Assembly (NCBI RefSeq): GCF_964355755.1
Contig: NC_092670.1
Span: forward strand, 7,935,201 to 7,999,200
DNA length: 64,000 bases
Direction of reading: 5' to 3'
Source of the DNA: Antedon mediterranea
Lineage: Eukaryota > Echinodermata > Crinoidea > Comatulida > Antedonidae
Made by a program: the position numbers and the translations under genes. The notes under the pieces were generated by a model. The model searched no databases. It worked only from the letters and a program-made list of their open reading frames with translations, and was not told where the DNA came from. Of the stretch, positions 1,881 to 60,161 are shown piece after piece; position 1 is the stretch's first letter; each line of letters begins with the position of its first letter.

Positions 1881-3599
1881 CACCAGGCCTACTACACATG
1901 ATTTTACTAATCAACATACATTAAATAGAAGAATACTTTTATAAATACCAAAATAAAACTTAATTTTATTATTCAGAAATTCAATAAATACTAAGTCACA
2001 TAAATATTTAAAAAATACAATACATATATTTAGATACAATCGTTGCTGTATATATTTATTTCTGTTCGTCGAATTACTGTCAAGAATCAGTATCTCAACA
2101 GTAGCACATAAAAAATAATTATGCATACGTTTTCAAAACATGCAATATTAAGAATTTGAAAATGAAAAGCCTATTCTCAGTAACACCATGCCTTAACATT
2201 AGGAAAACCAACTAACTAAAAAATGTTATATAGACATTAATTGCAACAGTTTATATATACATTATAACATATTTGGTCTAAAGTCGGAATTCATTGTCAA
2301 TTATGAATATGAACATAAAAATATTAAAAATATAATATTGTACACCAAAAAATTTTGAATAAGCCATTTTAATGTCACATAAATAGATATTCACTTTCAA
2401 AGACTAGATTATAAAAAAAAATTTAAAGGTCGACTGCGAGATCAATGTGTATTTATTCTGTTCAGTTTATTCTTTTATTTTTAATTCATTACTTTTTTGA
2501 CATAACTTATTTGTTTTATTTTAGGAAATAGATTTTGTAGTTTCCATAATATCAAATTCAACAAATGGCCTATTAAATGTTTGATTCGTGTTTTGAGGAC
2601 AGTAAAATATTGAATCTAATAATGTTTTATTGAGAATTTTTTCGTAATCGCATGCCATTAATTAAATTTTACTTTGTAATATCAAGGCTATATTGAAGTC
2701 ACACAAACATAACGATAAATATTTATAGTTATAATGCTAAATCTAAGTTTATATCAAAAAAAATGTGGCAGTAAGTAATTGTAATATATATATTTAAAAT
2801 ATGTGTCCGAGACACACAATTCCCAAGCCCAAACACCCCCCCCCCCCCCCCACCCATTAGAAAATCCTAGGCCTCATTCACACTATCATCGATCAGCCGA
2901 TAAAAAATGGCACTGTGTTAAAAAATACTTAATAGAAGCATTAAAATATTTGTGAAAATAGTACCAAATAAACAACCGACGTAGCCATGATTTTGTCCAA
3001 TCATCGGATCCGAACTAGGGACGTAGCAATAGCTAATGCTGTTTATGACTTTTTTGAAGGAGTTCGGAAATTATTAATATCGCACTTTGTGTACAATTTA
3101 TTATTATTTGGTTGCCACAATTTAATTGCGCACACATAGTTGATATTAAACAGCTATACACGTATGTTATCCACGTGCTTACTGTAAACTATATACAACA
3201 AATAACTGGTTATACCTTATAATTATAATATACCTCTTTATATGATTAAAACATGATTTGGTTCCCTTGTCAAAGTATTAATTCGTACTATACCCTGTTG
3301 TTCTACCCATTCCTACATGGCTTACCGATACTATAGGTAAAAAACACAAGCTATGGGAGAAGAAAGTTCACAATAAATTATGCCACTATTAATGCCACAA
3401 AATGATCTAATGAAGTAAACAGATTTATAATTTAACATCAAGATTATTTAACAGCATAATCTAAACACATTTTAACAATATTCACATATACGAATCATCA
3501 TCATTATTTTATTCTCACCAATTTTATTTGAATGTCATAATGTGATTTTTTTTGTGTTGATATAATATTTCCTCGGTAAGACTGTACAAAACTTCGTCG

Positions 3600-3605
3600 T
3601 TTATT
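3600..3605 (-). terminator. candidate poly(A) signal of the PDGF/VEGF-like gene
   Basis: The minus strand reads AATAAA about 87 bases beyond the proposed stop codon at 3692-3694. That is a plausible distance for a polyadenylation signal. Other AT-rich hexamers lie further downstream, so the choice is tentative. Confidence 0.4.
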
Positions 3606-3691
3606 TCATGACACGTTTTAATGCGTTTGTACTGGTCGGTTGTGACGCAACAAAACGCTTTGGTTTACATTTACGTAGTATGTTGGTATTA

Positions 3692-3812
3692 TTATATCCC
3701 GTCAGGTGTTGACTCCACTTTTACTGGACGCAGTTCACACTTGTTATTGTGAGTATCGTAGTACCGTCCGTGGTTGCAAAAAGGTTCTTCGCATTGGCCA
3801 GTTTCAACACAA
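3692..3812 (-). CDS. PDGF/VEGF-like gene, exon 5 (C-terminal Cys motif)
   Basis: The acceptor is AATTACAG. Its single first base completes the Leu codon carried from exon 4. The exon codes the last 39-40 residues, with C260, C266, C271 and C284 and an N-H-G-R-Y-Y-D segment, and ends ATA TAA. The Cys pattern continues the tail of exon 4 and resembles Balbiani-ring-like repeats known from VEGF-C/D C-termini. The plus-strand open frame at 3706-3891 is its shadow. Confidence 0.72.
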
Positions 3813-6800
3813 CTGTAATTGCAATGACATTTTAGTTAATAATAAAAATTATACAGATTATATCGTATTATATTTCAGATCCATTATATGATGAAAGAGA
3901 TTTGATTATCTTCTAACAATCTTTTAATCAATAGAAAAACCGCAACACGGTGGTCTAACTCATTAAGGTAAATAACGGGCATTCGCAGTTTTTACAGAAC
4001 ATTATTTTTAACCAATATACATTATATTTTTTTTACCCTTTTCGATTCGATTAGATAGAAACTCTTATACCGTCATACACATGTTACTAAGGCAGACTAA
4101 AAGAGTTAGGCCTACTTCTCTAACATACGTTTACGTGTAACATTTGCTGTTAATATGAAAGACAGTTAGTCTTAATTCACTTACAGTGCGTCAGCTTCGG
4201 ACAGTGTTCGTTTTCCTTTCTTTAACCTGTCACATGACTTTTGTTTTTCGTGAGCACAAACATTACATTGGCAGTAACGGTCTTGTTGAAAAAGCGATGT
4301 GCACATTTTTTGGCAAGCCAATGGTGAGGTATCGTAGTCGCCGCCTGTTGTCGGGACTGCGCTAGAACTACTAGTACTTGGCTGCAGTACGGTACACTCG
4401 CATTTATCATGTTCTGGTACATCGTATCGCCTGACTGATATGTCATCACCGTCAATGTACAACACCTGAAAATTGACAGTTCATTTGATAATAATTATAG
4501 GCTACTTTGTGCGGTGTTTTTCCGAATGATCGTACGATCAGAACGGTACTGGGTGAGATCAACTAACGTTCAAGTTCCCACCGGACCTTGACAAACCTGA
4601 TCCAATTTTGAATTTACAATGCAAAAGATAGCATATTAGGATCTGTTCAGCACAGCAGTTGGGCCCATCGTATTTGAAAATATTGGATCACACAATAGGA
4701 AGATGTATTCTTATGTTCCAAACATGAGTATGACATTGAACACAGAACATAAATACTACTTACCATAACTGTTTTATTTTTGAAGTTATCGCCTGTGTGA
4801 TAACATGTCTGTCCTTTTGGGCAACATCCAGAGTTGGTTCCACAACGACTTACATTTGCCGCCGGTGGTGAAATTATAATATCCGCTGGTATGTCTAACT
4901 CTTCGTATAAATCTATTATTTTCATCTTTGGTACTTTACATCTTGAGTTTTCAAATTCATTGGTCAGACCCTGTAGTTCTGTTTGGTAGCAAAAAAAAAA
5001 GATTACAATTTAGTGAGATAAAATAGTAGGGCCTATGCAGCTACGGTTAAGAGTGAGATGGTGAGAATATTTCATGAGTTGAAAGAATGCTCTATTTAAC
5101 GAGGGGATCCGAGTTGAAAAGAGCAGACATTTTTACAAAAAAGCTGAACGTATAACGTAAATAACCATCAAATAGTAGGGATAAACTCACACCGTTTTTA
5201 CGTAGGATTTGTGGGTTTTATTACCGAATTTTCCCATGGCACTAGAAATATAGATACATCACCGAGAATTGGGTGCAATTGACTGTCAAGTCAACATTGA
5301 TTGAAATTAATTAAAAACTGTACAATTTGATAAATTTGATATTATTACCGATATCGGTGTCCGAGTGGCTCGGATTCTCTTCTGATGGAAAAGCCTCTAA
5401 GTATAGTGTATGAAAAACTTCATACACGTCGTAGACATTTTTAGGACCATAAAATTGAAGGAATTCTTGCGGCGTGTGCTTGTAGCTTTTCGCACGCATT
5501 TCAACATAACTGTCCTGAAAAATACAAATATAATATATTTAATAATAACACTAATAATAATATTGATAAAACTTAATGGAGATTTTAATATGAGCAAACG
5601 AATAGTCAAGTTTATTCATCGTCCAAATGATTGGTTTATACACAGTAAGGCAGATTTAGTCATTTAGTAGTGTGTAGGCCTATATGCCATTTCCACCTAA
5701 ATTCAACAGTTTTAACCATCAGATCTAACAACTGGCAACAGGAATACCAGGCATGGGAAAATAAAATGTTATTTATATGATCTTAATACGATACTACTGC
5801 TGTTAGACTTGCTCCAAGTCTGTATTTATTGTCTTTTTTATGTAAACTCAAGTAATACACGTATGAAACGCAAAAATATTTATATTTTTACTAATATTAA
5901 GACAAAACTCCGTCTGGATCCCAGACTATACTGCTGTATATAAAATTAAATGATGGCTATTATGTTATGTTTGTGTGTCCATAATTCTGAATAGGCCTAT
6001 TAAGATGCTTCTCTGCTCTATTACAATTGATACCACTTTTGTATTTAATTTGTTTAGTAATAGTTAGGCCTACTAATGATTTTATAAGTAATACTCTTTA
6101 TTAAAGAAATACAGAATATAGTCTACTAAATCGTACTTATATTGGATATGTGTTTCCTGAAATACTTGATTTCATAATGCTATTAATAAAAAGAAGGTAG
6201 AATAGACTACTAAGTTATTAGTTGCTCTATTTCAAACTGTCTATTATTATCATTGATTAACATCTAAAAATGCCTTGGCTTTCCAAGAACAACAAATAGG
6301 CCCCTATCGAGGGAATTGATACAAACGGAATCGCAAGGTCCAGCCAAGTATATTCCTTACTTCCGTACACAATATCCATTGGAGAAACGAAATTAAATAA
6401 TGACTAAACCACCTGTCCAGTCAGGTAAGGATATGTACGTGTAGAAACTGCTCGCAAACAAATTTAAAATTAGGGTTTTTGGTTACTGGTACAAAACACC
6501 TGAAACGTTATACTGTAATGTGGCCTACTTAATGGTAAATATTATTTTGAAATAAGTGTGAATAACAGTGTATATTACACTTTTATAAGAACCAATAACG
6601 TTTATACAAGGCAAAAATAGAGAACTTAGCTAGTTGAAATTTGTTTAATATATTTTTCTGACTATAAAATAGTACTTCAGATATGACGTTTATTAGTTGA
6701 TGACGTCTATTAGTTGATATGACGTCAGTATGTCACCTGGGACGATCGCAATTTATCTGTTATGACCGTGGGTTACATACATTCCCATATTTTTGTACCA

Positions 6801-9800
6801 AATATTTCAACGAGATTAATGTAGTGGTATGTGCAGGTTGTACTTAGGATTTACATCAAAACCATTCAGTTGGCATAGGCCTATAGAATGCTAGAAATGT
6901 AAACGAAAAGGGTTGGTCTTTACTTCCGGTTACGATCACTGAAATTACTACCTACAGTACCCTAATGATCGGGTTCAATAATCGTATAAAATAAAAATGT
7001 TTAAAAACATTAGTTATAGATACAGATACAGATACAGATACAGATAACTTTTATTGTCCAAATGAACTGGAAATTGCATTTGCTCACTTATCACATAAAA
7101 ATATCGTATAAAAATATCGACGATATATAAACTGCGCACTAATTCATATTATATATGTATAATATCCAACCCATTGGCGACGTGTCTATTATACGATTAT
7201 TATTCTCTATTATTCCACTTAGCTTTCCCTCGATTCTACATAGGTCTACCAAACAGGGTGAACAGTTACAGTGGTACCCTGGATTTTAACAAAGGCAATG
7301 ACCTCTCTATGCCGAGGCTGCAGCTTAGTTGCACGGTAGCTGATTTAAATTAGGCATTACTTTTAGTTATAATACAATTTGGTTACAAAATAGATTATTG
7401 GTGTTTTTTCTTTAAATATGAAATGGCGTGATACTGGGGATAAAATGATAGATTTTCTATGAATGACTGATAGTTCTCGTTGTTTTAACATATGATCACA
7501 TTTCTAAAAATGTATTGGTGTTCTTTATGATTATCATATTCAATGTATATAATTTGTTTTAAGTTATAAAAAGCAATATTTCTGTTTACTTACGAGAGGT
7601 AGGCCTAAATCTACTGATTAGATAGTTAAAAGTAAACCTGTATTTTCAATGAACATCCGCATGCGTTAATGAGCACACAGGGGGTTTAATTACGAATTGC
7701 CTAGTTAAAATTATTAATAATTTTAAATTTTGACCTAGCCACTTAGTTCACTAATATATCATCGACACAGGTGTCAGTATGCAAATTAAGTATAGTTTAA
7801 TAACGTGTTTACATCAACGTATATACCACCGAGACGTTCTTATATTACTGTTTTCGTTGTAATAATACACTCGTTAGGTAGTAAATCTAATGCAATTGAT
7901 ACAATATTCACATGCATGTCTAGGAAAACCGTAACATTATGCTTATTTTTATTATTTATTACCATTAAAAGTGAAATGCAATCTACAGAATGAAACAAGG
8001 CCATATTTTTAAAAAGCATTCTTGGTTTGGCACTATCTATTTTCTGTAATTATATATAATATTATATTTTGTTTCAGTCCTAGGTTATTCATAACTGAAA
8101 TATGTTTCATCTAAGTACAAACGAGCAGCGTATGTAAGTCCTATGGTTAGTAAATTTTAAGTAATACGATTTACTGTATTGTAATTTACTAGCAAATAGA
8201 ATTATCAGCATAATTCAATTCAAGACTTTTCAACACGTGCGTACCAAGTAAGTGCAACAATTCTGACGTGAAAACAAGTGTGATGTGAATTTATTTTCCT
8301 GAGCTCTGTCTACACTACCGTATCAAACTAGTTTGACAAAAATAGTGTGATGTGCCCAAATATGGTAGTACTGTACAAATATAGTACTGATATGACATCA
8401 CCATGTCCATATATATGGGCACATCAAATGTGTTTGTCACATAAAGTTTTATAGTGTAGACAGAGCTTAAGTAATGTTAAATAGTTTAAGTAGTATTTGT
8501 TAAACAGTACTAACATCTTAATCATATTAAAAAAAGTTAATTAAAGTTAACGAGAAGAATACAAATTAGAATAGAATAAGAATCATTACGGTATAGTTAC
8601 TATTGTGTTAAAGCATACATAAGCATAATTATAATAAAATAGCATCTCTACTATCTAGTTAATTAACCAAAGATTATATCCAAATAGTATAGAAGAGTAA
8701 AATGATAAAACAGAAAATGTTCTGTTGATAAAACAGACAAATGTACTACATCCTATTGCTGTTAATGAGAAACAAAATAACCACTAATAAATGAATGGAA
8801 AGTGTGCATTAATTAACAAATGTAGTGTAGGCCTAAAGAAAGAAGTTGTTACGTCACAGAGTGATTCCCTCGTACTCATAACGTCCGTCCACCAGAATAT
8901 TAATTAACCATAATTTGAAAGTAAAATGACAAGAACAGAAAAATAGAACAGAAAAAGAGTGTCGCTGAATGTCTAAGAAAATGTTTAAAGAAGTATTATA
9001 TTATTAAGATATTTGAGAAAAGAAGTGCAAGAAAGTTGCTATTGTGATCCTATTAGAAAACAACCGGAATGTGGAACTGAAACAATCACTGTTTATTTAG
9101 TTAGTTAGTTTAGCTTCGTGCGTTTTGTTTACGTGATTTCAATAATTTTTTATATAATACAATAAAATGATGTAGAAATTTTAAAAAGCGCATCTGCGGA
9201 TCTCACTCACTCCATCTATGAAACGCCTACGTCTTGTCAACACAGTTTTCGCAGTATTGTCCCTTTTTTCTCGTAAAACTATCTGTGAATAATGGAAACA
9301 CGTGGAAAAAGAATAAGATATCGTCGGAACAATAAGGATAAGAATTAATAATGACAAACGATAGAACAAAAATATTAATAAAAATAACTTTGATACATGT
9401 TTTTAAATCAATAATAATTAAACAATAATAATAATAATTTGGTTTTAAAAAGTCATAGTAGTAGTGACAAAAACTAAATTTTATTTTATTTAAATATTTA
9501 TACGACAAAACCTTTTTGGTGGAGTCAATGAACGTCTTTAGGTCAGAAATCACATTATTGTAAAATAACAAATTCATTGGAGCACAAATTTAATTTGTGT
9601 TGCTTTAATATCTACAAATTAAATTTGTTCTCCAATGAATTACGATACATTTAATACGTAAAGTGTGATTTAGTCAGAAAATAGTTACTTGGCCTACAGT
9701 ATAAGAGAAGAGTGAGATATGTTTTACCCTCTATAAAAAAAAACAATCGTGACAGCAGTGGCGTGCCACATTCCTTGGAAAAGCGGTATTATTCGCATGC

Positions 9801-12800
9801 GTAAACTAAATCGCTGCATTGGGATTCACTCTGACTGGGTCTCTACAAAGAATATATGTACGTGCCAATTTTTAAAATTCATGGCGAAGAATATGTACTA
9901 TCAAGACACAATTAAGTGTATACAGATTTTGTGTTCAACTGACTCATGGAGAGTTCCGGTAGATTAGATTATATGAGAGCTTGAAAGGTTCGCGATTTGT
10001 AAGTCACGGAGTATCTAACAATTTACTTATCTTTTCTGTGGATCTCGGACGATTATGGATACAATAGAATTGACTAAAAGCACGATCCAAGTTCACATTG
10101 TCAAAATCTATTACAAGGTTAACATGTAAACACATACCCACCTAAGCAAATTATTGTTATGCTCTGTGTTTATGAAATTTATGTTATAGAAATGAAATAT
10201 ATAAAAACTGAACCTTAAAAACGTAATGATTTGGCCAAGTACAATTGTACAATCAAATAGATGTTAAGAATACAAGTGTTTCTTTTATTTGCTTAAGCTT
10301 GGTTCCCAATACGCAATGTAATTGTAAGGACGTAAGCGTAACAAGCGAGTTGACCAATGACAAGCGACAATTCGAATAGTCAATATTAGTTGTTCTTCTA
10401 AACTGGACTACAATATTTTATAAATTTTTCTATTTATTTATTTTTTTAATATTTTAATTTAGTTGCCATGACCTAAAGTTTGCATCCAATTTTATTTTGC
10501 TTCTTTCTGCACTCTTTTACTTGTTAATTCTACATTAGTGTAATTTTGCTCTTTGTTGTAAATTTGTGTGCAGAAAAACAATAAAAACAAGTAAATATTT
10601 TTTTAAGTTAACTACTACTAGTCTTTTATCGTTATCGTGATTTCTGTAGAGAATGCTATTCTTGTTGACCTTAAATGCAAAAACATGATGATCTAAATAC
10701 AATTATTTATGAACTGGTCCAGTATTAGTACTGTAAGTAATCCATCGTATTGTCTGTCTGTCAAAAACACAATGGTAACTGTTTTATGACTAACTAAAGT
10801 GTATAAAAGTACAAACTGAAAAGAGACTGTCGAAATAAAGCCGGATAGAGATGATATTTGATCATACCATTTTAGGATTATTTTCTCCATGGTCATACGA
10901 TGTCTAACAGCAATTTAATTTTTATTCAGCAAAACCACGTCAAAACACTATTGTTAATCATTGTTATTAACTTATATTATAATTACAATTTTCAAAAGAA
11001 CGTGAAATCAGGTCAAACTATTGACCTAAACTCTCTTTACATGATATTTGATGGTAGATTACCGCTGTTGTAGCAACGAATCATTAACAATCAATTTAAA
11101 ATTATTATAATCAATTACACACACTAACGATAAGTCTACAGAATTGCCAAAACAAATGTTCAACGAGAATTATATTGTCATAATAAAAAAAAGTGTTGGT
11201 AAAACCTGACACAATCTTTAAAATATTTTATAGGATCAAGGTTATTCGAAAATTTACAAATCTTATAATATTTATGTAATTGGTAATTTTTTTGTTTGTG
11301 TTAGGGAAAAATAATTTAAATGAACTTGGCGCGTTTAACTATTAAAATGTTTTACTTGGTTATAGCGATCGTTTAGCTTGAAGTATTTCCTGAGTGAAAG
11401 TTTATATACATACAGCAACATCAATAAGAAAATTGTGAGCATTAATGGCAATCAAACAGGTTTTACAAATTCCCAATAAAAAAAGGGAACCGGTAATACT
11501 TTCCATACTAGAAGCAAAAACAACAATACGAAGAAAACATTGGGTTTAGCTCATGTCCAATGTTTAAGCCGTTTCACCTTTATTCCAATTGGCAGATCTG
11601 CTTTTAGTTTGTCTATATGAACACAGTGTTTCTTTTTATTGTGTTATACTTGAGTTAGCGTAAATAATAATTCAGTAAACAGTTAAACTATAATTTTATT
11701 GTCGGTGTGAGTTCAACTTCCATTATAAAATATTTCCACAGAATGCCAAAAAATTTGCCGCAATCAAATTTCTTATTTCCAAAACTATGTGCCGGTAACT
11801 TAAGATATCAAGTGACACGACAAATTACAGCTTAATTCAGGCTATTTTACTAACATCGACTTCCTGATTTATCTACATGCTGATATATAATAGTGTGTAT
11901 ATTTGACAAATTTATATATACAATTGCATCAATACATTTCTAGCGACAGAATAATAGCAATATACACTTTATAAAGGAAAATACCATTAACATTAAATGG
12001 TTAATGTAAAAAGATGTAGAAAGATATGGAAATGTTTCAGATCGTTCTAGAATAACCGCTGATTGTTGACTACTGTACCAAATAGAAATCCCAACGGACA
12101 ATCAGCAATCTGCTCACCCTGCTAAAATAGTTCTAAATTTGAAGTATTTTGCAGGCTGCATGTAACTCTCTTGTGACAACGGGACAAAATGCAACCTTGA
12201 CTCTAGTAAACTTATAAGCCAAGAGTTGGTGGTACATGACTTGCAATATTTTAGTGCTTTTCAGAAGAAAAAAAACCATTGTGTACAAACACATCTTTTA
12301 TTGTTAAAGATGTTGCCAAAAACTTTAGCAGTCGTTAAAGATGACATCTTAAAAGAAATGAATGAAACATTCACCAAAAAGTCAAAAGATAAAAGTGCCT
12401 TTTCAAAAATGGCATCCTCCAAACTGAAGAAATATAGCGTTATCCATCTAAAAAGATGAGAGATGACATCCTACAAAAAATAGATGAAAGATGAAATTCT
12501 CCAAAAAGATGGTAAAATGATTTATTGTGCAAAAGTCTCACGTTGCTGATAAATGTTAGTAGCAATGTAAGTTTTAATTATTCAAAATTTTAATTATTTG
12601 ATTTACTATAGTGCAGAGTTTTTAAATGACGTATCTGCCAATATAGTAAAATCAACAGGTCTCGAACTGAATCGAATATCACACGTCGAAATTCGTTTTG
12701 AACTTTCTTCGCACACATGCAAATTAAAGGAAACACGTGGTATTATAGGTAGCAATTTTTAAATGAAATATTGTCAATTAGCCTTTAATAATTAATAATG

Positions 12801-15800
12801 TTTACCTAAGTGGTGGCCTTTAGCTGCTGCATTGTTAAAATCAAATACTTAAATTTTATTAAACAATAACATGTATTAACTTTACGATATTTGAAGTCTA
12901 AAACTAGGTCAAGGTGATTTAAGAAAACATAATTGACACCTACTCAGGACAACTATTGTCATCGTTTAACCGGTTAAACTAGCTACACTTTTTCTACGAG
13001 AAGAAGAAAAATCTCCAAAGTATTGTATTTTAGGTATCAATCAAAATATTGTTTGTATAATTTTCTGTTGGCCTACTGGAAAACAATCTTTCAAAGACGA
13101 AACATATAGCAATGCTTTGTTTGAAAGGTTCAGTTTTTTTTTCTGTTGTAAAACCAAAGTGAAGGATGTTGGGAAGTGCTACAAAACATTAAAGGAAACA
13201 ATAGTTATGTCTTAGATGAAAATTTGCAGGAAATATTGACATCATCATAGTGAAACTGGAGAAGGATGAGGCAGGCAGAAAAATAAGTTTCTTTGTAGTG
13301 CTTTGTATTAAAACCCGGATTTCAGCAACAATCAACCACCAGGATTTTACGTATAACCTAATGTACAGAATCTTGTCTTTGTTAGTGTTTACGGACCGTG
13401 ATTACGTCACACGTTACACAGATTCGGTTAATGAACAATGTCACATTAATTGAGTTTTGTAATGAGGAGTACCTGAACTCAAATCTATAACATAACAAAT
13501 TATTGGTACAAGAAAATCGGATAAAGCTACATTCATTGTTAAATAATGGAAAAAATCATGTTTACATACAAAATGGAACGGCGCCGTCTTCGTTTAGTGA
13601 AATGTGGGAATTGTAGCTTTATGTTTAACTATAGCAGTAACTACTGTATTACACAAAATCATATTATTAATTCTAAAATAAATTGCATTAAGTTTTCCCC
13701 AGAACAAATCTACAGAGTCGTACGTCGTTTATGATAAGAAACCTTAACATCGTAGGTCTGAACAGATTATCTGTTCAAATGAGCAAAACATTGTATCATG
13801 GTATTGTGGTTCATGGTTACCCAATCAAATCAATGCCGTGTAATTGATGGCTGTAATTAATTGGACGTGAAGGTGTTTAAATATAGGTGTTTTAATTAGA
13901 GACAACGTGTGTGCTAAACGTTTTGCATTATCACTGAAAAGTAAGTTATTTTTCTCAATGGTATGATAAATATTGACGTTGTATTATCTCAATAACCAGT
14001 GAGCACTAATTACTTCACACCTGGCGTAATGCCCTTGGATAAAACACGCGCCAAAACACAAAGGTAAGACCTTCGCTGTTTCCTTAATTAATTACTGACT
14101 TAAATAAGACTAGCCCTTGATTTTTAATTGTGTGGCTCGGGCAGAATCTTGTTTTAAATTAACTGAATTTTTATGTATTGAGGCCTAATTTATGTAAGGT
14201 ACAGCCTAATGCCGGTTAGGGCTTCTTTTGCGTAATAAGCATTGCGCATCTTTATCCCAGACTTACGCTTCTCAGATAATAACATATAGGTCTCTCAAAA
14301 TATTTGATAGATTATTAATAAACTGTTTTTAATAACAGTAGATCCCCTATTTTCTTGGTAAATGAACTAGTGACCCCTATACGGGGGACACTGATTGATT
14401 CCATCATAAACAACCCCCCCCCCCCCCTCTACAACCCACCTTAATATGAGTTCTACTGCTACAGAAAAGTAACGTCATGATATAAGTTCCCATGAGATGT
14501 TTTCCCCATAAAATCTATAAATGTATGATGGACGAGCAGGTGTAGAATTTAACAACAAATAACAGCTGATGGTATATCATTTTATTTATTGGATTAGATT
14601 GACCGCTTAGCACAAAATCAGTAACACAACATAACGCACGTGTACAAGTGATATATTTTTTTTTTTAACGCGCCCGTAGCAGGCCTACCGTTCGTAACTG
14701 CTGGGAATAATCGCTGGTAAGACACGGTTTAATTGTTAACGAATATTTTTAACAACCTAAGGCCTAGACGATTTTTCTTCGAACACTCGTTTTTGTACTT
14801 CCTGTGTGCAAAGTAATTAACAACTTTGAAGAAGCCACTCCTCAAATTCTGGTGCTTAAACCACAACACCACTAAATGACAGGTCCAACCCACTGAAGGA
14901 GTCCGTTCCATGAACTGTGATACAAACTGTGATAGCCAGGGAGATATAAAAACTAAATTATTATTTTACATCTCCCTACAGTACAGTAGTATGCCAATAA
15001 TGAACAATTGATGAGTTCAAACATTAATGTAAATGGCATCATTGACTAAACTGACACTACTGTGCACTATTATACGAAGGCTGTTGGACGGTGTTATCCG
15101 GGTGAAACATTAACTAGCAGGTCATAATGTCAAAGCAATAATAAATTCGTTAATCCACGCCTATCCTTTTGTGATCTTATCTTATAAAATCCTTATTTAT
15201 TGGTAAAACTAAATGAACGTAACATAAAAATAGGTGATTTTAATACCAGATCAACGAATAGTAAAAAAAAAATGATTTAGATATAGGGGAATAACCTGTG
15301 ACTGGCTGCCTACCGGGTAATTTCTATACCAGATATATGAATAGGCAAAAAAAATAATAATTTAAATATAGGGGAATAACCTGGGAATCGCAGTCTACCT
15401 GGTGATTTTAATACCATATCTGTGAATGGTATTCAAAATGTATGCATAAACGGCGTGAAACACTATAGCAACGGCCAGTAAATATAACAAGACCCTGACG
15501 GCGACCGTGGTTTCTACTACGGTATTAAAATAGAGTAGTACGGTATTAATTTGCAATGCAAATGTATTTCTTTATTTCATATTTTGTTTTATGGTTAACT
15601 TTAGTCTCAAAATTTTAACATGAAATCGTATTAGAACTCCCTTTGGGACACCTCTATTCAGGGAACAACCCGAACACCTATCCTTAATGGGACAAACGCA
15701 TGAGGGGCAATATTATGTTGTAACACGGTCAACCCCACTAGATGGGATGTGGAAGGTGTCCCATTAATAAACTGTATCATTTTGAACTACAAACAAATAA

Positions 15801-17448
15801 AGCTGAATAAAACATTGTCTTTGGAGCCCTCATTTTCTTGACATGGTATTTTCAAACGGTTCTTTAAAGTGTAATAAATATGGTGATAAACACTTATTAA
15901 ATAAATGTTTAAAATCTGACCTGTTCAAACCCTTAGAAAGTGGTTCAATTCTTGCCTGTAGGGTCGAGGTCGGTAAGTGAAATGATCTTCGAGTAAAAAT
16001 GACGGAAGCTGTCATAATAGGGCCGGGCCGGTTGTATCATAAAAACGTAGAATGCCAATGGGAAATAAGGACTTGAATTGGCCTGGGTTCGGACCCGGGT
16101 AACAAAATGATTCATACAATTTATAGATTATTAATCCATTAATTAATATATAAATATACACAAGTATACGATAAAAAATGATGTTCGAGACGTCGAAAAA
16201 GCACTGCTAAAAACTTTTTTATGATAAAATACTTTTTTACAGTTACGAAATGTGTAAAAGGTTTTTAGAAAAGGACTAATTTCCCTGATTTAGTGTAATT
16301 AGACTTCGTATTCCTAATTAATTCGTATTAATTAATTACCAAATGTATTCGCAAACTTATTAGGGTCTACTTATGACACTTTGAATGAATGGAAGACGTA
16401 CGTAAATAGACAATATGCAAAACCGTAAAAATGAAATTTAAATAATCATGATGATTTAGATTAAAATAAAACCGAAGTAGCCTACTTGATGTTGATGACG
16501 TACTTAGGGACCTAGTATAATATTAGATTAGACTCGACGTTGTGTATTTGTTTGTTAAAATTCCTTAGGAATTTATTTTGTTAGCTATCGAGAGTATTAC
16601 GACGTTTTATGTGTATGTCGTACAAAGATAACCATAGATCATACAAACAAATGCTATACAACTAGAATTAACAAACAAAACCCAGTAGAGATTAGGTTTA
16701 AAATGAATCAAAGCTTGCGAACGAGATCTATATAGTTGAAGACGTCAGCCAAGGCCTACTACAATACAGATAATGAACATTAATACTAAAAAGCTACTGT
16801 CACTCGTTTGTATATAAACTACGTTGTTTTACATTACACAAAAAAAACGTATAGTGTCAATATCACTTTTGAGATTGTTGGTTTGATATAAAATCGTAAT
16901 TGTTTCAAAGAACTGTGTACATGCGCACCTCCGTGAATGTTCCAACAAAGTCTAATATGTTCTAGAAATTCATAAGGGAGTCCGTTCAAACGTGTATAGT
17001 GACCCGATTCCCGGCACGTTATTGTATTAAGTATTGATTGAGAACATGTGCTTTTGTTTAGTAGATACAATCGATTATAGTACGCATAGGCCTAATCTCA
17101 AACAAATTATAACATAATAAGTAAAAGCAATTGAAAGACTGTCATACATGTGTTAGGCCTAGTATATGACTACGAGTAGGCCTACCTACAACACCGAATA
17201 CAGTATCCGATCGGATCGCTACCTGTGTTTTGTATTAATAATGCGAGCAATGCTTTTATATTATCCTCCTAACGATCATTATATCAAAATGCGTTTTTGG
17301 TTACTTTCTTTGATATATGAAAAATGTAACTTACTGTAGGCCTATTCCTTTGTATCTCGTCTTCTACTTCTCGAATTATCGCACAATCTCCATTCACAAT
17401 AAGAATCACAAATATGACTTTAATGAATAACATTTCTGTAAGATCCAT
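3692..17448 (-). CDS. PDGF/VEGF-family secreted growth factor, five exons (298 aa)
   Basis: Seen: coding exons on the minus strand at 17335-17448, 5349-5514, 4764-4978, 4185-4465 and 3692-3812. Introns are GT-AG, the phases match at every junction, and the total is 897 nt. Residues 1-23 form a signal peptide (hydrophobic core around residues 7-20, then DCA). The cystine-knot domain spans C107-C189, with Cys at 107, 139, 145, 146, 152, 187 and 189, ending in the KCEC signature. Sequons lie at N135 and N161. A tail from about residue 216 carries ten more Cys. Family knowledge: PDGF/VEGF dimers are extracellular ligands of receptor tyrosine kinases that guide cell migration and vessel or coelomic tissue growth. 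Inference: an invertebrate PVF/VEGF-C-like ligand. Further small exons could hide in the 11.8-kb first intron, and the transcription start is not defined. Confidence 0.88.
4185..4465 (-). CDS. PDGF/VEGF-like gene, exon 4 (KCEC knot end and Cys tail)
   Basis: The acceptor TTTTCAG is followed by GTG TTG TAC. The exon codes residues 166-258 and two extra bases. It contains the closing knot cysteines C187 and C189, a Ser/Thr-rich linker, then C216, C220, C230, C232, C235 and C243, and a basic stretch (K-K-G-K-R). The frame would read TAA at 4181-4183, but that triplet lies inside a consensus GTAAGT donor starting at 4184. I therefore treat the stop as intronic in the main transcript. Confidence 0.82.
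4764..4978 (-). CDS. PDGF/VEGF-like gene, exon 3 (first half of cystine knot)
   Basis: A long pyrimidine tract precedes the acceptor. The exon codes residues 94-165, including C107, C139, C145, C146 and C152, and ends K-T-V-M at a GTAAGT donor (phase 0). The spacing from C107 to C139 (31 residues between) is close to that of the first and third knot cysteines in VEGF-A. The sequon at N161 sits where VEGF-A carries its glycosylated Asn. Confidence 0.88.
5349..5514 (-). CDS. PDGF/VEGF-like gene, exon 2 (propeptide region)
   Basis: The acceptor is a pyrimidine-rich tract ending TTTTTCAG, and the exon begins GAC AGT TAT (D-S-Y). It codes residues 39-93 and one extra base, and ends at a GTAATA donor. 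The region is hydrophilic and Tyr/Glu-rich, without Cys, as expected for the segment before a cystine knot. The phase (one base carried over) matches the next exon. Confidence 0.8.
6681..6728. promoter_or_regulatory. cluster of three TGACGT half sites
   Basis: Three TGACGT hexamers lie within about 45 bases. They are embedded in a short tandem repeat built on ATTAGTTGAT, and the last gives a full TGACGTCA (CRE/ATF octamer). It lies in the first intron of the growth-factor gene. Regulatory use is inference only. Confidence 0.35.
7018..7047. repeat. six-base microsatellite (GATACA)n
   Basis: About five tandem units of AGATAC run into GATAACTTTTATTGTCC. This ending resembles the 3' tail of some retroposons, but no element body is recognised upstream. 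Confidence 0.7.
8301..8468. mobile_element. MITE family B, copy 1
   Basis: Begins GAGCTCTGTCTACACTA and ends TAGTGTAGACAGAGCTT, an inverted pair of about 16 bases. The interior has mirrored arms (AGTGTGATGTGCCCAAATATGG against ATATGGGCACATCA). It is about 168 bp without coding capacity. Relatives are at 34540-34660, 56920-57060 and 62251-62321. Confidence 0.75.
9571..9641. repeat. 28-bp inverted repeat with 15-nt loop
   Basis: Left arm 9571-9598 and right arm 9614-9641 are complementary over 28 positions with one mismatch, separated by 15 bases. The size (71 nt) would suit a pre-miRNA-like foldback or a small cruciform. The sequence is AT-rich and partly self-palindromic, so function is uncertain. 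Confidence 0.75.
10294..10385. mobile_element. MITE family A, truncated copy 3
   Basis: Starts TAAGCTTGGTTCCCAA and carries GACGTAAGCG and GACCAATGACAAGCGACA. The right half is missing. Confidence 0.5.
15235..15425. repeat. 85-bp tandem repeat, about 2.3 units
   Basis: The phrases ATACCAGAT and ATATAGGGGAATAACCTG recur with a spacing of 83-87 bases. The units differ by small changes, including the length of an A run. The block lies in intron 1 of the growth-factor gene. Confidence 0.7.
15637..15775. mobile_element. family C dispersed repeat, diverged copy
   Basis: Contains TTTGGGACACCTCTATTCAG and TTAATGGGACA, the vocabulary shared with copies near 52310, 52857 and 54586. Its ends are not clear. 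Confidence 0.4.
17335..17448 (-). CDS. PDGF/VEGF-like gene, exon 1 (signal peptide)
   Basis: Starts at the ATG at 17448 and codes 38 residues. MDLTEM is followed by a run rich in Ile, Val and Phe, then NGDCA, giving a likely signal-peptidase site after residue 23. It ends CCT ACA before a GTAAGT donor at phase 0, which fits the phase-0 acceptor at 5514. The TAGGCCTA octamer at 17337-17344 lies inside this exon and codes part of N-R-P-T. Confidence 0.8.
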
Positions 17449-25869: not shown

Positions 25870-26690
25870 AACGAATTGTTGAGAGATTATCTTCAGTTCC
25901 ATTTGAGTAACGACTTGATGCTTAGGTTAACTTCAGTTTCATTTGAGTAACGACTTGATGCTGAGGTTAGCTTCAATTCCATTGAGTAACGACTCGATGC
26001 TAAGGTTAGCTTTAGTTCAATGAGTATAAACGACTCGATGTTGAGGTTAACATCAGTTTCATTTGAATAACAACTTGATTGAGGTTAACTTCAGTTCCAT
26101 TTGAGTAACGCGACTTGATGCTGAGGTTAGCCTTAGTTATATTTGAATAACGACTCGATGCTGAAGATTAACTTCAGTTTCATTTGAGTAATGGAACGAT
26201 ATTGAGGTTACCTTCAGTTCCATTTGAGTTAAGACTCGATGTTGAGGTTAACTTCAGTTTTATTTGAATAACGACTCGATGTTGAGGTTAACTTCAGTTT
26301 TATTTGAGTAACAACTTGATTGAGGTTAACTTCAGTTTAATTTGAGTAACGACTCGATATTGAGGCTAACTTCAGTTTTATTTGAGTAACAACTTGATTG
26401 AGGTCAACTTCAGTTTAACTTGACGACTCGATGTTGAGGTTAACTTTAGTTTCATTTGAGTAACAACTTGATTGAGGTTAACTTCAGTTTCATTTGAGTA
26501 TAAACGACTCAATGATGAGGTTAACTTTAGTTTCATTTGAGTAACGACTCATTGTTGAGGTTAACTTGAGTAACGATTCGATATTGAGGTTAACTTCAGT
26601 TTCATTTGAGTATAAACGACTCGATGTTTAGGTTAACTTCAGTTCCATTTGAGTAACGGCTCGACCTCAGTTCCATTTAATCCATGATAA
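25870..26690. repeat. minisatellite, about 20 units of roughly 40 bp
   Basis: The unit reads approximately TTGAGGTTAACTTCAGTT followed by TCATTTGAGTAACGACTCGA. Units vary between about 36 and 48 bases, through loss of short pieces and a TATAAACGAC variant. Frames across it are interrupted, so it is not coding. It lies just downstream of the minus-strand bHLH exon and probably sits inside that gene's intron or 3' region. Confidence 0.92.
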
Positions 26691-26929
26691 TCGCGCAACC
26701 AAATCTACATTAACGAAGCAATAGCAATTTTATCAAAAACATAGAAATATAACGATTATAAATTCAAATGAGGATAAAAATGGAGAAGGTGCCTTCCTTT
26801 AAATAGATGGAAGAGCAACGTAAAACCAATGTGAGAGAATTCAGAATTGACAATATAACGAATGGCGATTGGAAAACACAAAATTTTAAAAAAAGTTTGT
26901 TGTTTATATTAATAACAAATAATACTTAC

Positions 26930-27455
26930 CACTAGTACTCCATTTAAGGGCACTTTCATTCGTATATTCAACCTGACGACACTCTTCTATGTACATTGTT
27001 GGAGATTGTCCAGATAGCAAGACTTCATTTAGCAATTGTATGTAAGCGATCGCTAGTTTCAATGTGTCTATTTTAGACAGCCGTCTTTCGTAGGGGAACG
27101 TTGGTATGCGCATTCGAAGCTTCTCAAATGCTTTGCTTAAACTCAGCATTCGATTTCTTTCTCGTACGTTCGCAGCGCATCTTTCAGGTAGTTCTTCTCT
27201 GCTATTGGATTCATGCGAATGCGAATCTTCACCACGTTGACATTTTGTAGTCCTAAGTGATGGAGACGCTGAACTATATGTTGTGTTGATGTACGCATTT
27301 GGCAAGGTGATCGCGTGATTCGCATGCGTACTGATCAGTACCTCAAATTCTTCAAATTGATTCGAGTTTTCATCTAAAAATTCTAGATACTGTAACTCAT
27401 TTGATTTGTTCAGTAAATCATTGAGAAAAGCATCGCAATCAAATATCACATCCAT
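26930..27455 (-). CDS. bHLH transcription factor, Ptf1a/Fer2-like (first coding exon)
   Basis: Seen: an open frame from ATG 27455. The basic region is at residues 92-104 ([11 protein letters not shown]), helix 1 follows, then a loop with [11 protein letters not shown], and helix 2 ends near residue 146. Family knowledge: the PTFPYE-RLSK-DTL-LAI-YI signature places it among class A tissue-specific bHLH factors of the Ptf1a/Fer1/Fer2/Fer3 group, which bind E-boxes with an E-protein partner and specify neural or endodermal fates. The acidic N-terminus (residues 1-40) could be an activation segment. After codon G176 the frame meets GTAAGT at 26929-26924, so the protein probably continues in another exon that I could not find. 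If unspliced, it ends seven codons later. The upstream in-frame ATG at 27587 overlaps the TATA box and is rejected as the start. Confidence 0.88.
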
Positions 27456-27585
27456 TTTTAATAGAGATTTGTAGATTATACATACGGCTAAGGTAACGTG
27501 AGCGAAATATAGAATTATAGTATAAACGGGTAAGCACCATGTAAAGAAGTTGAAGATAAAGTCGTTTGGTAAAATGAAAATTGTC

Positions 27586-27594
27586 ATTTATATA
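27586..27594 (-). promoter_or_regulatory. TATA box of the bHLH gene
   Basis: The minus strand reads TATATAAAT about 130 bases before the chosen ATG. This predicts transcription starting near 27560 and a 5' UTR of roughly 100 bases. It also shows why the ATG at 27587 is unlikely to be in the mRNA. Confidence 0.5.
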
Positions 27595-35543: not shown

Positions 35544-38500
35544 GTAAGTTATTGATTTACCATCCAACGATAGACAGAGCTCTGAAGCTAGCTGTATACT
35601 TAGCCGGCCTAAACTAAACCACACCACGCCAGCAGCTATTCTTGTCGGCCTTGCTTGTTTGTTTGGCCGGTATTCATGTCCTGTCCTGTGGGCCTAGAGG
35701 GTATATTTTGGTAATTATTTCACAGAAAACTGAAAGTAGTTTTAATACTACGATACAACAACACAATTCTCTTATTCTCATTAGGGCAAGCGGGCCTGCA
35801 TTATAATTTTTACTGAAACGTGATTCAGATTGTTATAATATATTATTAATTATTACCAGGCAGGGAAACGGAATGTATTACCCATGTAAAATGTCGCAAT
35901 TTTTATTCTGGTGTTGTAACAATACCCATTGTAATTTTAAACCATGTGTTACAACATATTCGGCAGACATCCTATTTGGAATTGCTGTATTCCAGAAGCA
36001 ATAATAAACCAATGTCATGGTCAAACTTATTTATTTATCTTATTTGGTCCTTTTTTCTATTTTATTTTCCAATGGTGGCACCAATGATGGACTATCCAAA
36101 ATAAACACAACAATCAAATATTACATCCTTTTCTATATTTATCATTGTTTTTCCTCCTTTATTTTTTAAAGTTTATTTATTTAGCAATGGTGTTGTCCAC
36201 AATGTTTTGTCAACCATTATTAATTATTAGGGACATCTCCCTGTAGAAGATGAACAAAGTTCCAGCACTTCTGATTGGTCAGATATATGTAATTATATGG
36301 TTGAATGCACAAAGATGACATAAGCAACAGTGAACTTCTTATCTGTATGTATAGATGCTGAATCACATGTGAACTTGAGAGTCCAAAGAATGGTATTTCT
36401 TCGAAAAAAATATTAGAAGTTATCATGTTATTCAAAATAAAACTTTTTCATTTGGTGGTTTTTCTTGGTGGTTTACTGATGTCATCCACAGATTAATAAA
36501 AAGTTCTAAAAGAAACCTGTTTGTTAAAATGGTTTATAAGATAATCTATATTTTCTTTTCTTGTTTTTTGCAAAGACCAACTGGTTGGCAAAAATATTGG
36601 TTTTTCTTTAACTTCTTCTCACTAAAAGTAAAATATGTTTGCCATAAATGTAACCAAAATGTTTCTCTAAAGTGGAAAAAAATTATTATTATTTTAAATA
36701 AACAGATTCTTTTTACTATGTAACATTTTCACTAAATTTACTATATAACATACAAAAATATATTAATTCAAAACAAAATTACAAGAAGTTAATTTAACCT
36801 TTTTTATTTCACTTTATGACATTTCATCATCACTTAATGATAGAGAGGTATAAGAGAGTTTACTGATCGACAAAAGATCTTACCAGAGATCTAAATCGGA
36901 TGATTTGGATCAGCTTGAATTCTAGAGCGTGTAAACACAGCCTGTCTATGAGATAGATAAACTAATTTAATAGCTTTGAGTGAGATTATGTAACACTAGG
37001 CTAAAGAAAACAATGATAACTTTATATACCAAATATGGTGCATCACTCTTTGCTTAAATCGCACGTTTAAATAAACCTTTTCATACGACCTGATATGAAC
37101 TATTACAAAATCTTTTAAATTGAAGATATCATTTCATATCAAACAACGTTTGACCTTTAGGGTCAAGTGACCAAATCAGAGAACTCCGACCTGTACCCAT
37201 TGTTTCTGGAAACATAGGGCTTCAAGCATTGAAAGGAATACCAGTCTCTCTCTGAATACAGCGTAATTGGACATTTTATTTAAAACAAGTGGTTTGTACC
37301 ATTCAATTTTGTACTGGTTTTTAAACAAAATGTTTTTTCGGTCATAAGCGATTTTCTTTTTGTGAAGGCAGAATCTTTGATTGATTATGTACTATACTTT
37401 AAATAGATACTATTTGATGGTTCAGAAGCTTGAAAGAAGCTTATTACTGTATTGTACTGATTCATAGAGAAAATGATATTGTATATGTATATTTTATAAC
37501 GACAATTACTGTACTGTATGTATTTCATAGACTCTAGACAAATTTACTGATAACCCTGTACTATTTCAAACATTTTAATGTATTACTGTATTACTGTATT
37601 TCATAGGGAAATTACTGTATATTGTACTGTATTTCATAGGGACAAATACTGTATATTGTAATGTATTTCATAGGGACAATTACTGTATATTGTACTTTAT
37701 TTCATAGGGACAATTACTGTATATTGTACTTTATTTCATAGACAGTTACTGTATTCTAATGCATTTCATAATGGAAATTACTGTATACAGTACTGTTCCA
37801 ATCCATAGAGACAGTCAATTACTGTATATTGTACTGTATTCATAGACAGTTACTGTATTCTAATGCATTTCATAATGGAAATTACTGTATACAGTACTGT
37901 TCCAATCCATAGAGACAGTCAATTACTCTATATTGTACTGTATTCATAGACAGTTACTGTATTCTAATGCATTTCATAATGGACAATTACTGTATACAGT
38001 ACTGTTCCAATCCATAGAGACAGTCAATTACTGTATATTGTACTGTATTCATAGACAGTTACTGTATTCTAATTCATTTCATAATGGACAATTACTGTAT
38101 GCAGTACTGTTCCAATCCATAGAGACAGTCAATTACTGTATATTGTACTGTATTGTACATAGACAATTACTATACATTTTTACGGTAATAATAGACAATT
38201 TCTGTATGGCATACATACTGTACTATCCAATAAAGACAATTGGTGTTACAGTATATTGTACAAGTTGGTACTGTACTGTACTCTATTTCCAAATAAATAT
38301 ACTGTACTCTGTTCTAACAGAATGAAATTAGGTCATTATAGAAGTTCAAACAATTGTCTTTATCAAATATCAAATACATGTGAGTTACATGCACTAGAAA
38401 TTACCCTTTTATATTTTGGACTATGGTAGCCATGTGCTTTATTTTTTAATTCTGTTTACCATTCTATATTTAAAATTCTAATTTTTTTTTTAATTGTTTC

Positions 38501-50500: not shown

Positions 50501-53500
50501 TAGGGGTTTTACTGTAATTAGCATTTCTCTCTTTTTTTATATAGTAATTAATACAGTGTTTAGTTTAGTATATAAATGTATTACAAGGGGATTCAAATCA
50601 TAAATTTTGATGTGAACAATCCTATTCTCTACCACTGAACCCATTTTCCACAATATTTTTCTTGGGGTGCCAGACCGAATCTGTTAGCAATGTGAAAGTA
50701 GCCTTAATATGGAGTAAGTTCTGGAATATACCCGTGGCATACTCAATAGGTGCCATAATATGCAACAATATCCAAAATAGTAGGACTACATTAAACCTCA
50801 TTAATAAATATTCTTATTTTTATTTCATAGGTCCTTGCTTGTACTTTTTTTACGTACTATGTGTTTGTACGATTCTGCGTGCCAGTATTTAAGAACTTTG
50901 GTCAAGAGGATTTAACTTTGCGCAACTTGATGTTGGCGTCCTTCAGCGTCATGCTTCCAGCCACACTTGTGCTTGTACTTGGGTTTTTTGCGATCCTACA
51001 TTCATGGTTGAATGCTTTTGCCGAGATGATGCAGTTTGCAGATAGACAATTTTACAAGGTACACAAAGATGGAAATGTTGTTTTCCCATAAATGCATTTT
51101 TGCCGCTAAAGCTTGGTAATTCTCACTTGGACGTAATGCAAGTAAGCACACTGTAAATAATTTGACTAATCATGATGCGATCATCTAAACTGTCGCTTGT
51201 GATTGGTCAACTTACTTGCATTGCGCCTATGTTGTTGCGTCCAAATGGGAACAAAGCTTAATAATCTTCATAGACGTTAACATTATCTTTAGGGTTAGGG
51301 TAAAATTCACCAATGCAATACAGTGCAGTTGTTTATAGCATTTCTTAAGTCTCAATTTTTTGTGAATTTTTAACCATAAAGTTGGGGGTACTGTAGATGT
51401 GTCTTTAACATACTTACATACTTGTCTGATTTGACTCAGAAGGATGTTGACAATTTCGGCACTCATTGCCTCACATTCAAATCATAGTACAAATATTGAA
51501 TGCAATGGGGCATTTCGAAATTCAACATGAAGCCTAATCAATGTTCTATATGGGGATGGCTTAATGTTGGTAAAAATGATAAATATTTTGGCACATATGG
51601 CATGCCATACATCTATTTGAACTGGAATAATTTCGAGCAAAAATATCAAAGTGTGATGATCTGTTGGTGGCACTCATAAAGGAACACTATCAACATGAAA
51701 AAGCAATACCTAGAAACTTGGGACACATTATCATTATTATTATTATTACTGTATTTCTTTATTTCATTAAAAACATCTACATTTCTACAAAAAATAATAA
51801 AATATAAAATATAAAAAAAATCTTTTTTACATTATTCCATGGAGTAAAATACTCCATGATTATTCTGCTCACAAGCCATATTTAATTTTTTTTTAATTTT
51901 TACTTTAGGATTGGTGGAATGTAAAGACATACTCAAGTTATTACCGTACCTGGAATATAGTGGTACATGATTGGCTCTTTACGTATATCTACCGAGATCT
52001 ACAGGTGAACACTTTTAGCATTTTATAATAATTATTTTTATATTATATTTTCCTGTTTCACAATAAGTCCATCCCTAGATATTAAAAAATAATATCATAT
52101 AAACATTCACTTTAGCAATAACTAAATTTATTTCTGACGTAGAATTATTTTAAATGTGTCACTGCAGTTTTATTAGAGACTTGTTATTAGAATAACAACT
52201 CACTGGTTTTATGAAAAGAAATTTCTCATCTCTATTTTTACATAGAAACAAAATAGAATTGTTCAATCTGTATTCAGGTTTTTAAGCAACATTACATTAC
52301 AGATTTTATTGTACCATATTCAGGGGAACCCCTCAGGGGACACTTCTATTCAGGGAAAACTCCTATTAAGGGGATACCCCTAATAAGGGGACACTTTCTT
52401 GTGAAAAACAAGAGGAATTGTATATTTAACATGCCCCTACTCAGCAGACATCCCTCCTTATCATTATGAAGGGGACATTTCATTGGTCTAGAGTGTTTCC
52501 CCCACCCAACCCCCCTAATAGATATTCTACTGTAGTAAATTCCCCCTTACCTCTGCCCCACTGCTTTACGGCTTAAGGTGAGAAAACCTGCATCCATATA
52601 AACTTAACACAATCTTCATTGCACAGCTTTTAACAGATGATAATTATTCAAGATAACCTCCTTTTTTTTTCAATTTCGTTTTAGCTTTTAGGGTTTGGCA
52701 AGTTCTTTTCCATGATGGCAGTGTTTGTAATATCTGCGACTATGCACGAGTACATTTTAACAGTCTCACTCAACTTCTTCTACCCCGTTTTATTCTTCAT
52801 GTTTGGTGGTGTTGGAGGTATGTACAGTGAGCCGGTTGGTTTAACAAGCTTTTACAAATAGAATCCCTCTTCCCTCTTCAGAGGACACATCTATAAAGGG
52901 ACACCTTCTTCTGAATTGAACGAGGAGCAATATATATGTTATAAAACTACGACATTCACTCCTATTAAGGGAGCACCCCGGTTTAATGGCCAAGCGATTA
53001 AGGCAGGGGAGCAGTTTACCGTACTTAAAGAGACAACAATATCGGCATGGGTTCGAGGCCAAGTTGCTCCTAGTTCTGGTGGTAGAACAAATCTTTTAAG
53101 ATAAGGACTATAAACCATAGGTCCAATCTACACAGTTAGCCTGTGGGCAATTTAAGAACCCAGCTCATCTCGAGACGAGTAGGGGCTACCCCTGTGAACT
53201 GGTTAAAAAAATAGCCTCAGTGACAGTGATTAACCTAATATTGTCAATCCTTTGCCACATGTGCCTAAATAAAACAACTATAAACCACACTGATAAGAAA
53301 GTTTGTATTATCCAAAGAATTGTGTAACAACAAAATTGTATTGAGCAATAATTATAGAAAGGTTTTGCCTGCACTTAGCCTACACTTTACTACAGTAAAT
53401 ATTTAGGGAATACGCTTTTTTTTCTTAAGTGTTTTTGTTTAAAAGACAATTGGTGTGTAGCTGTTTTGGTGGTGTAATCAGTTCAGGTGTGCCACAGGCT

Positions 53501-58751: not shown

Positions 58752-60161
58752 GTAGGCCTAGGGGCCATTAAACATTTAGTTTTAAAAAAAATCATCAATA
58801 ACAATAATTTAGGCTAGGTTTAGGGTGATATAGATAGGCCTAGGCCTAGCCCCAACATAAATAAATGAAAGCTAATAGCCTAGCTTACCGATTGTACTGT
58901 ATGGCTGAGCTAATAAGAATGATAATGAATTAGATAAATGAAAGATGTTTTTCGTCTTGTTTACAGAGCTAAATTGATTCTTGACGCTGCATTTAAAAAC
59001 CCCGCCAAGTACAGCTTGGATTGTGGCCGCATTCCAGGTAGGAAAGATCCTCTTTTAATTGTTGATAGTAAACCTGACGATACCTCACCATCAACATCAA
59101 CGTCAGTTAAGTTGGCGACTGACACTCAGCCTCCTAGTGGCGGCAGAGAGGAATATCTACGCCGGAAAAAAGTTTGTCTTGAAAGGGGTAATAAGTTACA
59201 TGATCACTTTTGGAATCGTGGCTTCAAAGTGAAGTCATATTATTGGGAGGATATTGCATTTAGTAGTGCAGAATTTGAACCTCCTAAGAAACAACTGTAC
59301 GAGGATTACCCTCCACTTCTGGCTAAAGATCCGTACAACATGACGTCAGCAGGTAAGTCCACGGGTAAGTCAGTTCCATTATCGATATTCCGTGACGGAA
59401 GTTTAGTTCGCATTGAACGGCTTAAGAAGGAGCAATTTTCTCCACATGATTGGTTGAAAAAACATCCATTAATTTCTAAAAATATCAGAAAACACCAAGT
59501 AGATTTATTAATGACCATGTCTCGTCAGTTTAACTATGGTCATGGATTCGGATTCAATGCTGTATGCCTCTTAGGTAATTTCATGTCAAAGACGACACAT
59601 GCTATGACGTCTGAAAGTATCCGGTTCGTGACAATCGGTGCTTTTGTCTTGACCGCTGTTTCCCGACTTGGAAGAGAAATAAATGTATTATACAGAACTT
59701 TACTAGGCTTAGGATACACACAAATACCAGAAATTAAGAGATTTACTAATTTGATTGATTCCACTCTAGGCATCAACGGTCTTGAAGAACCGACTGCTTT
59801 AGATTTTCTTAACGCTCATTGTAAGAAGTGGGTTGTACTTCGACCACATCATCATACAGATGTTTTATTTTCTATGGATCAGGTAGGGATCCAAGCTCAA
59901 AGGTTAATCGTACAAGCTGCTAACAGCTATACTGTAATGATCCAGACTTATGCATCAAGATTGGCCACTGCAGCCATTCTGGTTGCTTGTGACCTCATGA
60001 AAGAGAACGTTGGTAAACTCTTTCCAGAACTTCAAATATCTTGTTCTGTTGACGAAGTACGCGAGATTAACGTTTCAATGAACTGGTTCCGAAGTGTTCA
60101 TCATGATAACATGATTCGTAACAAAGCTAAGCCAGTGCTGCACAGTTCTCATTGTAATTAA
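58576..60161 (+). CDS. divergent cyclin-box protein, two exons (456 aa)
   Basis: Seen: exon 1 58576-58751 (donor GTAGGC) and exon 2 58967-60161 (acceptor TTGTTTACAG). Together they form 457 codons with stop, joining N-R-A-K. Residues 1-230 are basic or Ser/Thr-rich and unlike known domains. Residues about 233-332 fit a cyclin N-terminal box (VDLLMTMSRQF, AVCLLGNFMSK, a GAFVLTAVSRL helix, then EIKRF). P-T-A-L-D-F-L at 334-340 matches the inter-box signature. Residues about 350-435 fit a C-terminal box (YASRLATAAILVACDLM). Family knowledge: cyclins bind and activate CDKs. By eye the first box is nearest to cyclin G/I. The canonical Lys-Glu pair that contacts CDK is not obvious, so CDK binding is uncertain. 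Subfamily is not assigned. The ATG at 58938 is intronic and is not the start. Confidence 0.75.
58967..60161 (+). CDS. cyclin-box gene exon 2
   Basis: The exon carries both cyclin boxes and ends S-S-H-C-N then TAA. Codon use is markedly more balanced in GC than the flanks, which supports real coding. Candidate poly(A) signals AATAAAA follow at about 60245 and 60284. Confidence 0.82.

Follow-up and report, generated by a model that had tools for sequence, protein, structure and literature searches.

A probable VEGF-C-like growth factor gene of five exons, one of a tandem pair, in the genome of Antedon mediterranea

The window analyzed here, a stretch of 64,000 nucleotides of the Antedon mediterranea genome (C1:7935201-7999200), very probably contains a functional-looking PDGF/VEGF family gene, the product of which would be a secreted, dimeric growth factor with a cystine knot. 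The architecture of the predicted product is closest to that of VEGF-C and VEGF-D, and the gene forms a tandem pair with a second one on contig C1. The gene is split over 14 kb and includes no long open frame; it could nevertheless be read from the raw sequence, and other members of the family in the genome confirm it. It is a real but ordinary gene, and as such causes little surprise. The tandem pair of VEGF-C-like ligands, both lacking the second cysteine, is an addition to a kind of protein that has been described as common in invertebrates (PMC10328876).

Gene model

In the original prediction, five minus-strand pieces were joined in phase into 298 codons and a stop at position 3692. This assembly stands: the four junctions have GT..AG borders with phases 0/1/0/2, and the joined frame runs without an inner stop to a TAA that ends at 3692 (Table 1). 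The first intron, predicted to span about 11.8 kb, measures 11,820 bases. GTAAGT is present at three of the four donors, and the donor scores of exons 1 to 4, calculated with a rough matrix of our own, are 2.69, -0.85, 5.76, and 2.37. The weakest border is the donor of exon 2 (TCG/GTAATA), the position of which is homologous to that of the GTAAGA donor in the tandem paralog. In addition to the possible polyadenylation signal listed in Table 1, AATAAA occurs at 3528 and 3513 and ATTAAA at 3622, all 3′ of the stop codon. The G+C content of the window is 27-35% (4-kb steps). As far as it can be tested, the gene model is correctly assembled.

Table 1. Features of the VEGF-like gene (window positions) and of its tandem paralog
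Feature	Position	Strand	Description
Exon 1	17448-17335	minus	114 bases; start codon, signal peptide (MDLTEMLFIKVIFVILIVNGDCA...), donor GTAAGT, phase 0 out
Intron 1	5515..17334	minus	11,820 bases
Exon 2	5514-5349	minus	166 bases; pre-domain (...HTPQEFLQFYGPKNVYDVYEVF...), phase 0 in, phase 1 out
Exon 3	4978-4764	minus	215 bases; initial two thirds of the PDGF/VEGF domain, phase 1 in, 0 out
Exon 4	4465-4185	minus	281 bases; end of the PDGF/VEGF domain (KCEC) and tail Cys 1-6, phase 0 in, 2 out
Exon 5	3812-3692	minus	121 bases; final four tail Cys and stop codon, phase 2 in
Possible polyadenylation signal AATAAA	3600..3605	minus	begins 87 bases past the stop
Tandem paralog	G000:C1:7864093-7882956 (L001, L004)		same strand as the VEGF-like gene, ~70 kb away
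Tandem paralog, exons 2-5	L001 5978-5825, 5431-5223, 4229-3667, 3208-3094	minus	read by eye, phases 0/1/0/2

Domain identity of the product

The proposed identity of the product as a PDGF/VEGF-like ligand is borne out both by a match of the trimmed product to PF00341 above the curated cut-off and by sequence matches to the VEGF-C, VEGF-D, and VEGF-A chains. The PF00341 match had been expected over residues 107-189; the product of exons 1-4, up to ...CTVLQ, indeed matches at residues 110-189 (30.3 bits, profile positions 3-82 of 82, cut-off 27), whereas the untrimmed 298-residue product matches no Pfam family at E values up to 10. The same holds for the 205-residue piece that extends from exon 3 to the end and contains the whole tail, for which no Pfam match was obtained. 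Apparently, it is the Cys-rich tail that causes the match of the full product to be missed, presumably via the composition filter of HMMER. Exon 3 alone (taken as the stretch 4758-4976, including six intron bases) scores 23.4 bits over profile positions 3-56, and exons 3 and 4 together score 31.8 bits over positions 3-82 of 82; this gain provides independent support for the junction between the two exons. Human VEGF genes, too, have this phase-0 intron inside the VEGF domain.

In a phmmer search against solved structures, VEGF-C was the best match (E = 1.1e-6), followed by VEGF-D and VEGF-A, and VEGFs accounted for 20 of the 22 distinct sequences among the matches listed at E values up to 10, the other two being weak and unrelated. 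A profile built from the six VEGF-like genes of the genome likewise retrieved VEGF-C as its top structure match (3e-15). Of 14 control genomes, PF00341 matched in only one, that of Haloferax volcanii, and there under the cut-off, indicating that weak matches to this profile do arise by chance. Judging from these similarities, "VEGF-C-like" would be a more exact name for the product than "PDGF/VEGF-like".

Relatives in the same genome

The search of the genome (354,431,138 bases in 18 contigs) with PF00341 yielded nine places at E<=1, of which four, all on contig C5, are above the cut-off. Exon 3 of the VEGF-like gene, with 23.3 bits, ranks fifth, and sixth is another place on C1, at a distance of about 70 kb, with 20.3 bits; the last three places are weaker and were left unread. 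The genome thus encodes at least six PDGF/VEGF genes, two on C1 and four on C5, and the domain of the VEGF-like gene is 28-34% identical to those of its relatives.

The tandem paralog on C1 resembles the VEGF-like gene in strand, exon plan, the phases of exons 2-5, and the lack of the second cysteine, but differs in that its domain is only 34% identical and its tail exon has 563 bases, compared to 281 in the VEGF-like gene. The third exons of the two genes match each other in both directions (E = 4.5e-7 and 2.1e-6), and both genes have Glu-Leu at the junction of exons 2 and 3. Given that the paralog's exons 2-5, as read by eye, carry identical junction phases, assembly of the gene model by chance is unlikely, in agreement with the original prediction. 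The whole product of the paralog has no Pfam match, and its domain alone scores 23.1 bits, under the PF00341 cut-off.

The C5 genes are informative with respect to the remaining exons; their sequences in alignments A1 and A2 were trimmed to the exon ends by eye, with a possible error of a few residues. In three of the four (L005, L006, and L007), the tail exon ends with Cys-Lys or Cys-Arg, split by a phase-2 donor, and exon 4 of the VEGF-like gene ends at the same place, also in phase 2. By eye, a piece resembling exon 5, with the pattern G-x-C-x4-C-x2-G, can be discerned in L006 and L007 (compare GQCEEPFCNHG in the VEGF-like gene), and only the second half of this motif is retained in L001. 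L005 and L006 also possess a pre-domain exon of phases 0/1, with TADEFLEAIFPHNNIEDVWQAV and TDQLGEYLKEFFPNQDREQVV, respectively, in comparison with TPQEFLQFYGPKNVYDVYEVF of the VEGF-like gene, a likeness seen by eye and unscored. A counterpart of exon 2 was not found in L002 and L007 by the exon finder, which also missed exon 2 of the VEGF-like gene itself, most likely on account of the weak donor, so that this absence means little. The relatives support exons 2, 3, 4, and 5 of the VEGF-like gene.

The first exon and the long first intron

Exon 1 has no sequence match elsewhere in the genome, and its link to exon 2 is drawn from the signal peptide and from its being the sole candidate nearby. 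The scan for first exons employed self-made thresholds that were uncalibrated on known genes and were lowered after the first setting (donor >=3.0, hydropathy >=2.2) gave no upstream candidate for the VEGF-like gene; exon 1 was missed at that setting because its donor scores 2.69. With a donor score >=2.0 and hydropathy >=2.0, exon 1 is the sole phase-0 candidate for a signal exon that the minus strand offers between 5515 and 30000 (two start codons, one donor), and with a donor score >=0, no second candidate appears on the strand from 5515 to 34286.

The possibility has to be considered that exons 2-5 are real but are preceded by a different first exon, located further upstream or of a kind that the scan rejects. 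Along with the lack of a sequence relative of exon 1, the frequency of such exons speaks for this alternative: the looser setting yields 20 signal-exon candidates in 263,410 strand-bases (both strands of the window and of seven loci, the exon of this gene and that of its paralog included), or about one per 13 kb of strand, so that finding one within 12 kb is not rare. Furthermore, four candidate donors are found on the minus strand of the window at donor >=0, the other three being at 37191, 34287, and 1920, and the corresponding exons at 34397-34287 and 37274-37191 could serve as alternatives. Nevertheless, we consider a different first exon unlikely, given that exon 1 is the sole candidate from 5515 to 34286 on its strand even at loose settings and that its hydropathy, 3.28, is the highest among all 20 candidates. 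The tandem paralog presents a similar picture: in the stretch read, only one candidate first exon with a donor score >=2 was detected (G000:C1:7882956-7882834), and it precedes exon 2 of the paralog by about 15.9 kb; a weaker candidate (donor 0.6) lies between 7882834 and exon 2. The former candidate would give the paralog a long first intron as well. Exon 1 therefore likely belongs to the VEGF-like gene.

None of the three ORFs of at least 85 amino acids that lie wholly inside intron 1 has a Pfam match over the cut-off, the best being DUF6794 (15.8 bits vs 27.1); a fourth intron-1 ORF, outside the Pfam scan, overlaps exon 2 on the opposite strand.

Cysteines of the domain and the tail

As predicted, the knot ends with KCEC, at residue 189, and is followed by ten cysteines. 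The six cysteines that we take to form the knot are all present in the proper order and spacing, at residues 14, 46, 53, 59, 94, and 96 of row 1 of alignment A2, and are invariant in all six genes. Of the two further interchain cysteines of the domain, the VEGF-like gene keeps one (C52 in GCC), and the second is replaced by Ala, as is apparent from the alignment of SPPAANV with KPPCVSV of VEGF-C and of ppaanvsrc with PPCVSVYRC. In alignment A2, the second cysteine is absent in two of the six genes, both on C1, and kept in all four C5 genes. This absence is notable but not new: loss of one or both interchain cysteines is described as common among invertebrate VEGFs, PVFs and cnidarian VEGF-C-like proteins included, and such proteins are counted as members (PMC10328876).

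VEGF-C and VEGF-D, the best matches among solved structures, contain the pre-domain, the VEGF homology domain, and the Cys-rich C-terminal tail in the identical order. Apart from the Ala in place of the second interchain cysteine, the product differs from VEGF-C in the RCGTNSGCC loop, which is three residues longer. The tail follows the pattern C-x9-C-x-C-x2-C, one residue short of the BR3P-type repeat, C-X10-C-X-C-X(1,3)-C, as given in the same source (PMC10328876), and exons 4 and 5 yield no match to PF03128 (CXCXC). Among the other tails scanned with this profile, that of L002 scores 16.2 (cut-off 15), that of L006 scores 12.2, below it, and the whole product of L001 has no match; L005 and L007 were outside the scan. 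Exon 4 of the VEGF-like gene ends with Asp-Ala-Leu (DAL) rather than with the Cys of the relatives, and the next Cys is found at the start of exon 5. The ten-Cys tail is homologous to the tails of the relatives by exon position and end pattern. The same paper assigns BR3P tails to cnidarian VEGF-C-like proteins, most of them with three to five repeats; compared with these, the tail here is shorter and irregular, a distinction drawn from descriptions rather than from sequences (PMC10328876).

The missing cysteine, the short and irregular tail, and the weak donor of exon 2 could also be taken as signs of a decaying gene copy, the exons of which are no longer expressed. Such decay appears highly improbable, considering that the 298 codons include neither an inner stop nor a frame shift, that the six knot cysteines are kept, and that three of the four donors are GTAAGT; moreover, a frame that is still open at 28-34% domain identity suggests long-kept selection. 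For a functional gene, the expectation would be that it is transcribed and the product secreted, that the product may be processed by proteases as VEGF-C is, that its dimerization would for the most part not involve the usual pair of interchain disulfides, and that the ligand could activate a receptor tyrosine kinase of the VEGFR/PVR type. The PF21339 receptor model had no match in this genome, but none in the 14 control genomes either.

The engineered C156S change in VEGF-C alters receptor choice. It can be speculated, with considerable doubt, that the two C1 genes make up a local VEGF subfamily in which the second cysteine was lost before the duplication and its partner was kept. Dimers of either product might then form in the absence of the normal reciprocal bonds, or each product might be linked by one bond to a C5-type chain, and the receptor choice of such heterodimers could be altered, as in the case of C156S.

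Other features of the window and the related loci

Upstream of the VEGF-like gene and on the same strand, an ORF at 26907-27587 (minus) encodes a basic helix-loop-helix domain (PF00010, 58.1 bits), the sole match over the cut-off among six ORFs of the window in one Pfam scan. On the plus strand, a 407-residue ORF (58938-60158) shows a sub-threshold match to the cyclin N-terminal domain (PF00134, 21.4 bits vs 23), and an exon-like frame at 50831-51088 shows sub-threshold matches to DPM2 (16.3 bits) and MBOAT (13.3 bits); a guess made by eye is that the latter frame might belong to a sterol acyltransferase gene. An identical run of 59 residues (counted by eye) is encoded in two plus-strand stretches, 50611-50889 and 60470-60844, and is therefore probably a dispersed repeat.

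In L005, two long minus-strand frames at 3569-6719, reverse-transcriptase-like and endonuclease-like by eye, represent a LINE-type element; in this C5 VEGF-like gene, it separates the domain exon from the tail exon. The window also contains two tandem arrays, at 25877-26664 (40-base unit, 20 copies) and at 37610-38171 (105-base unit, 5.4 copies). Finally, the octamer TAGGCCTA is strongly favored, with 37 occurrences in the whole window, whereas rough base composition would predict about 0.6.
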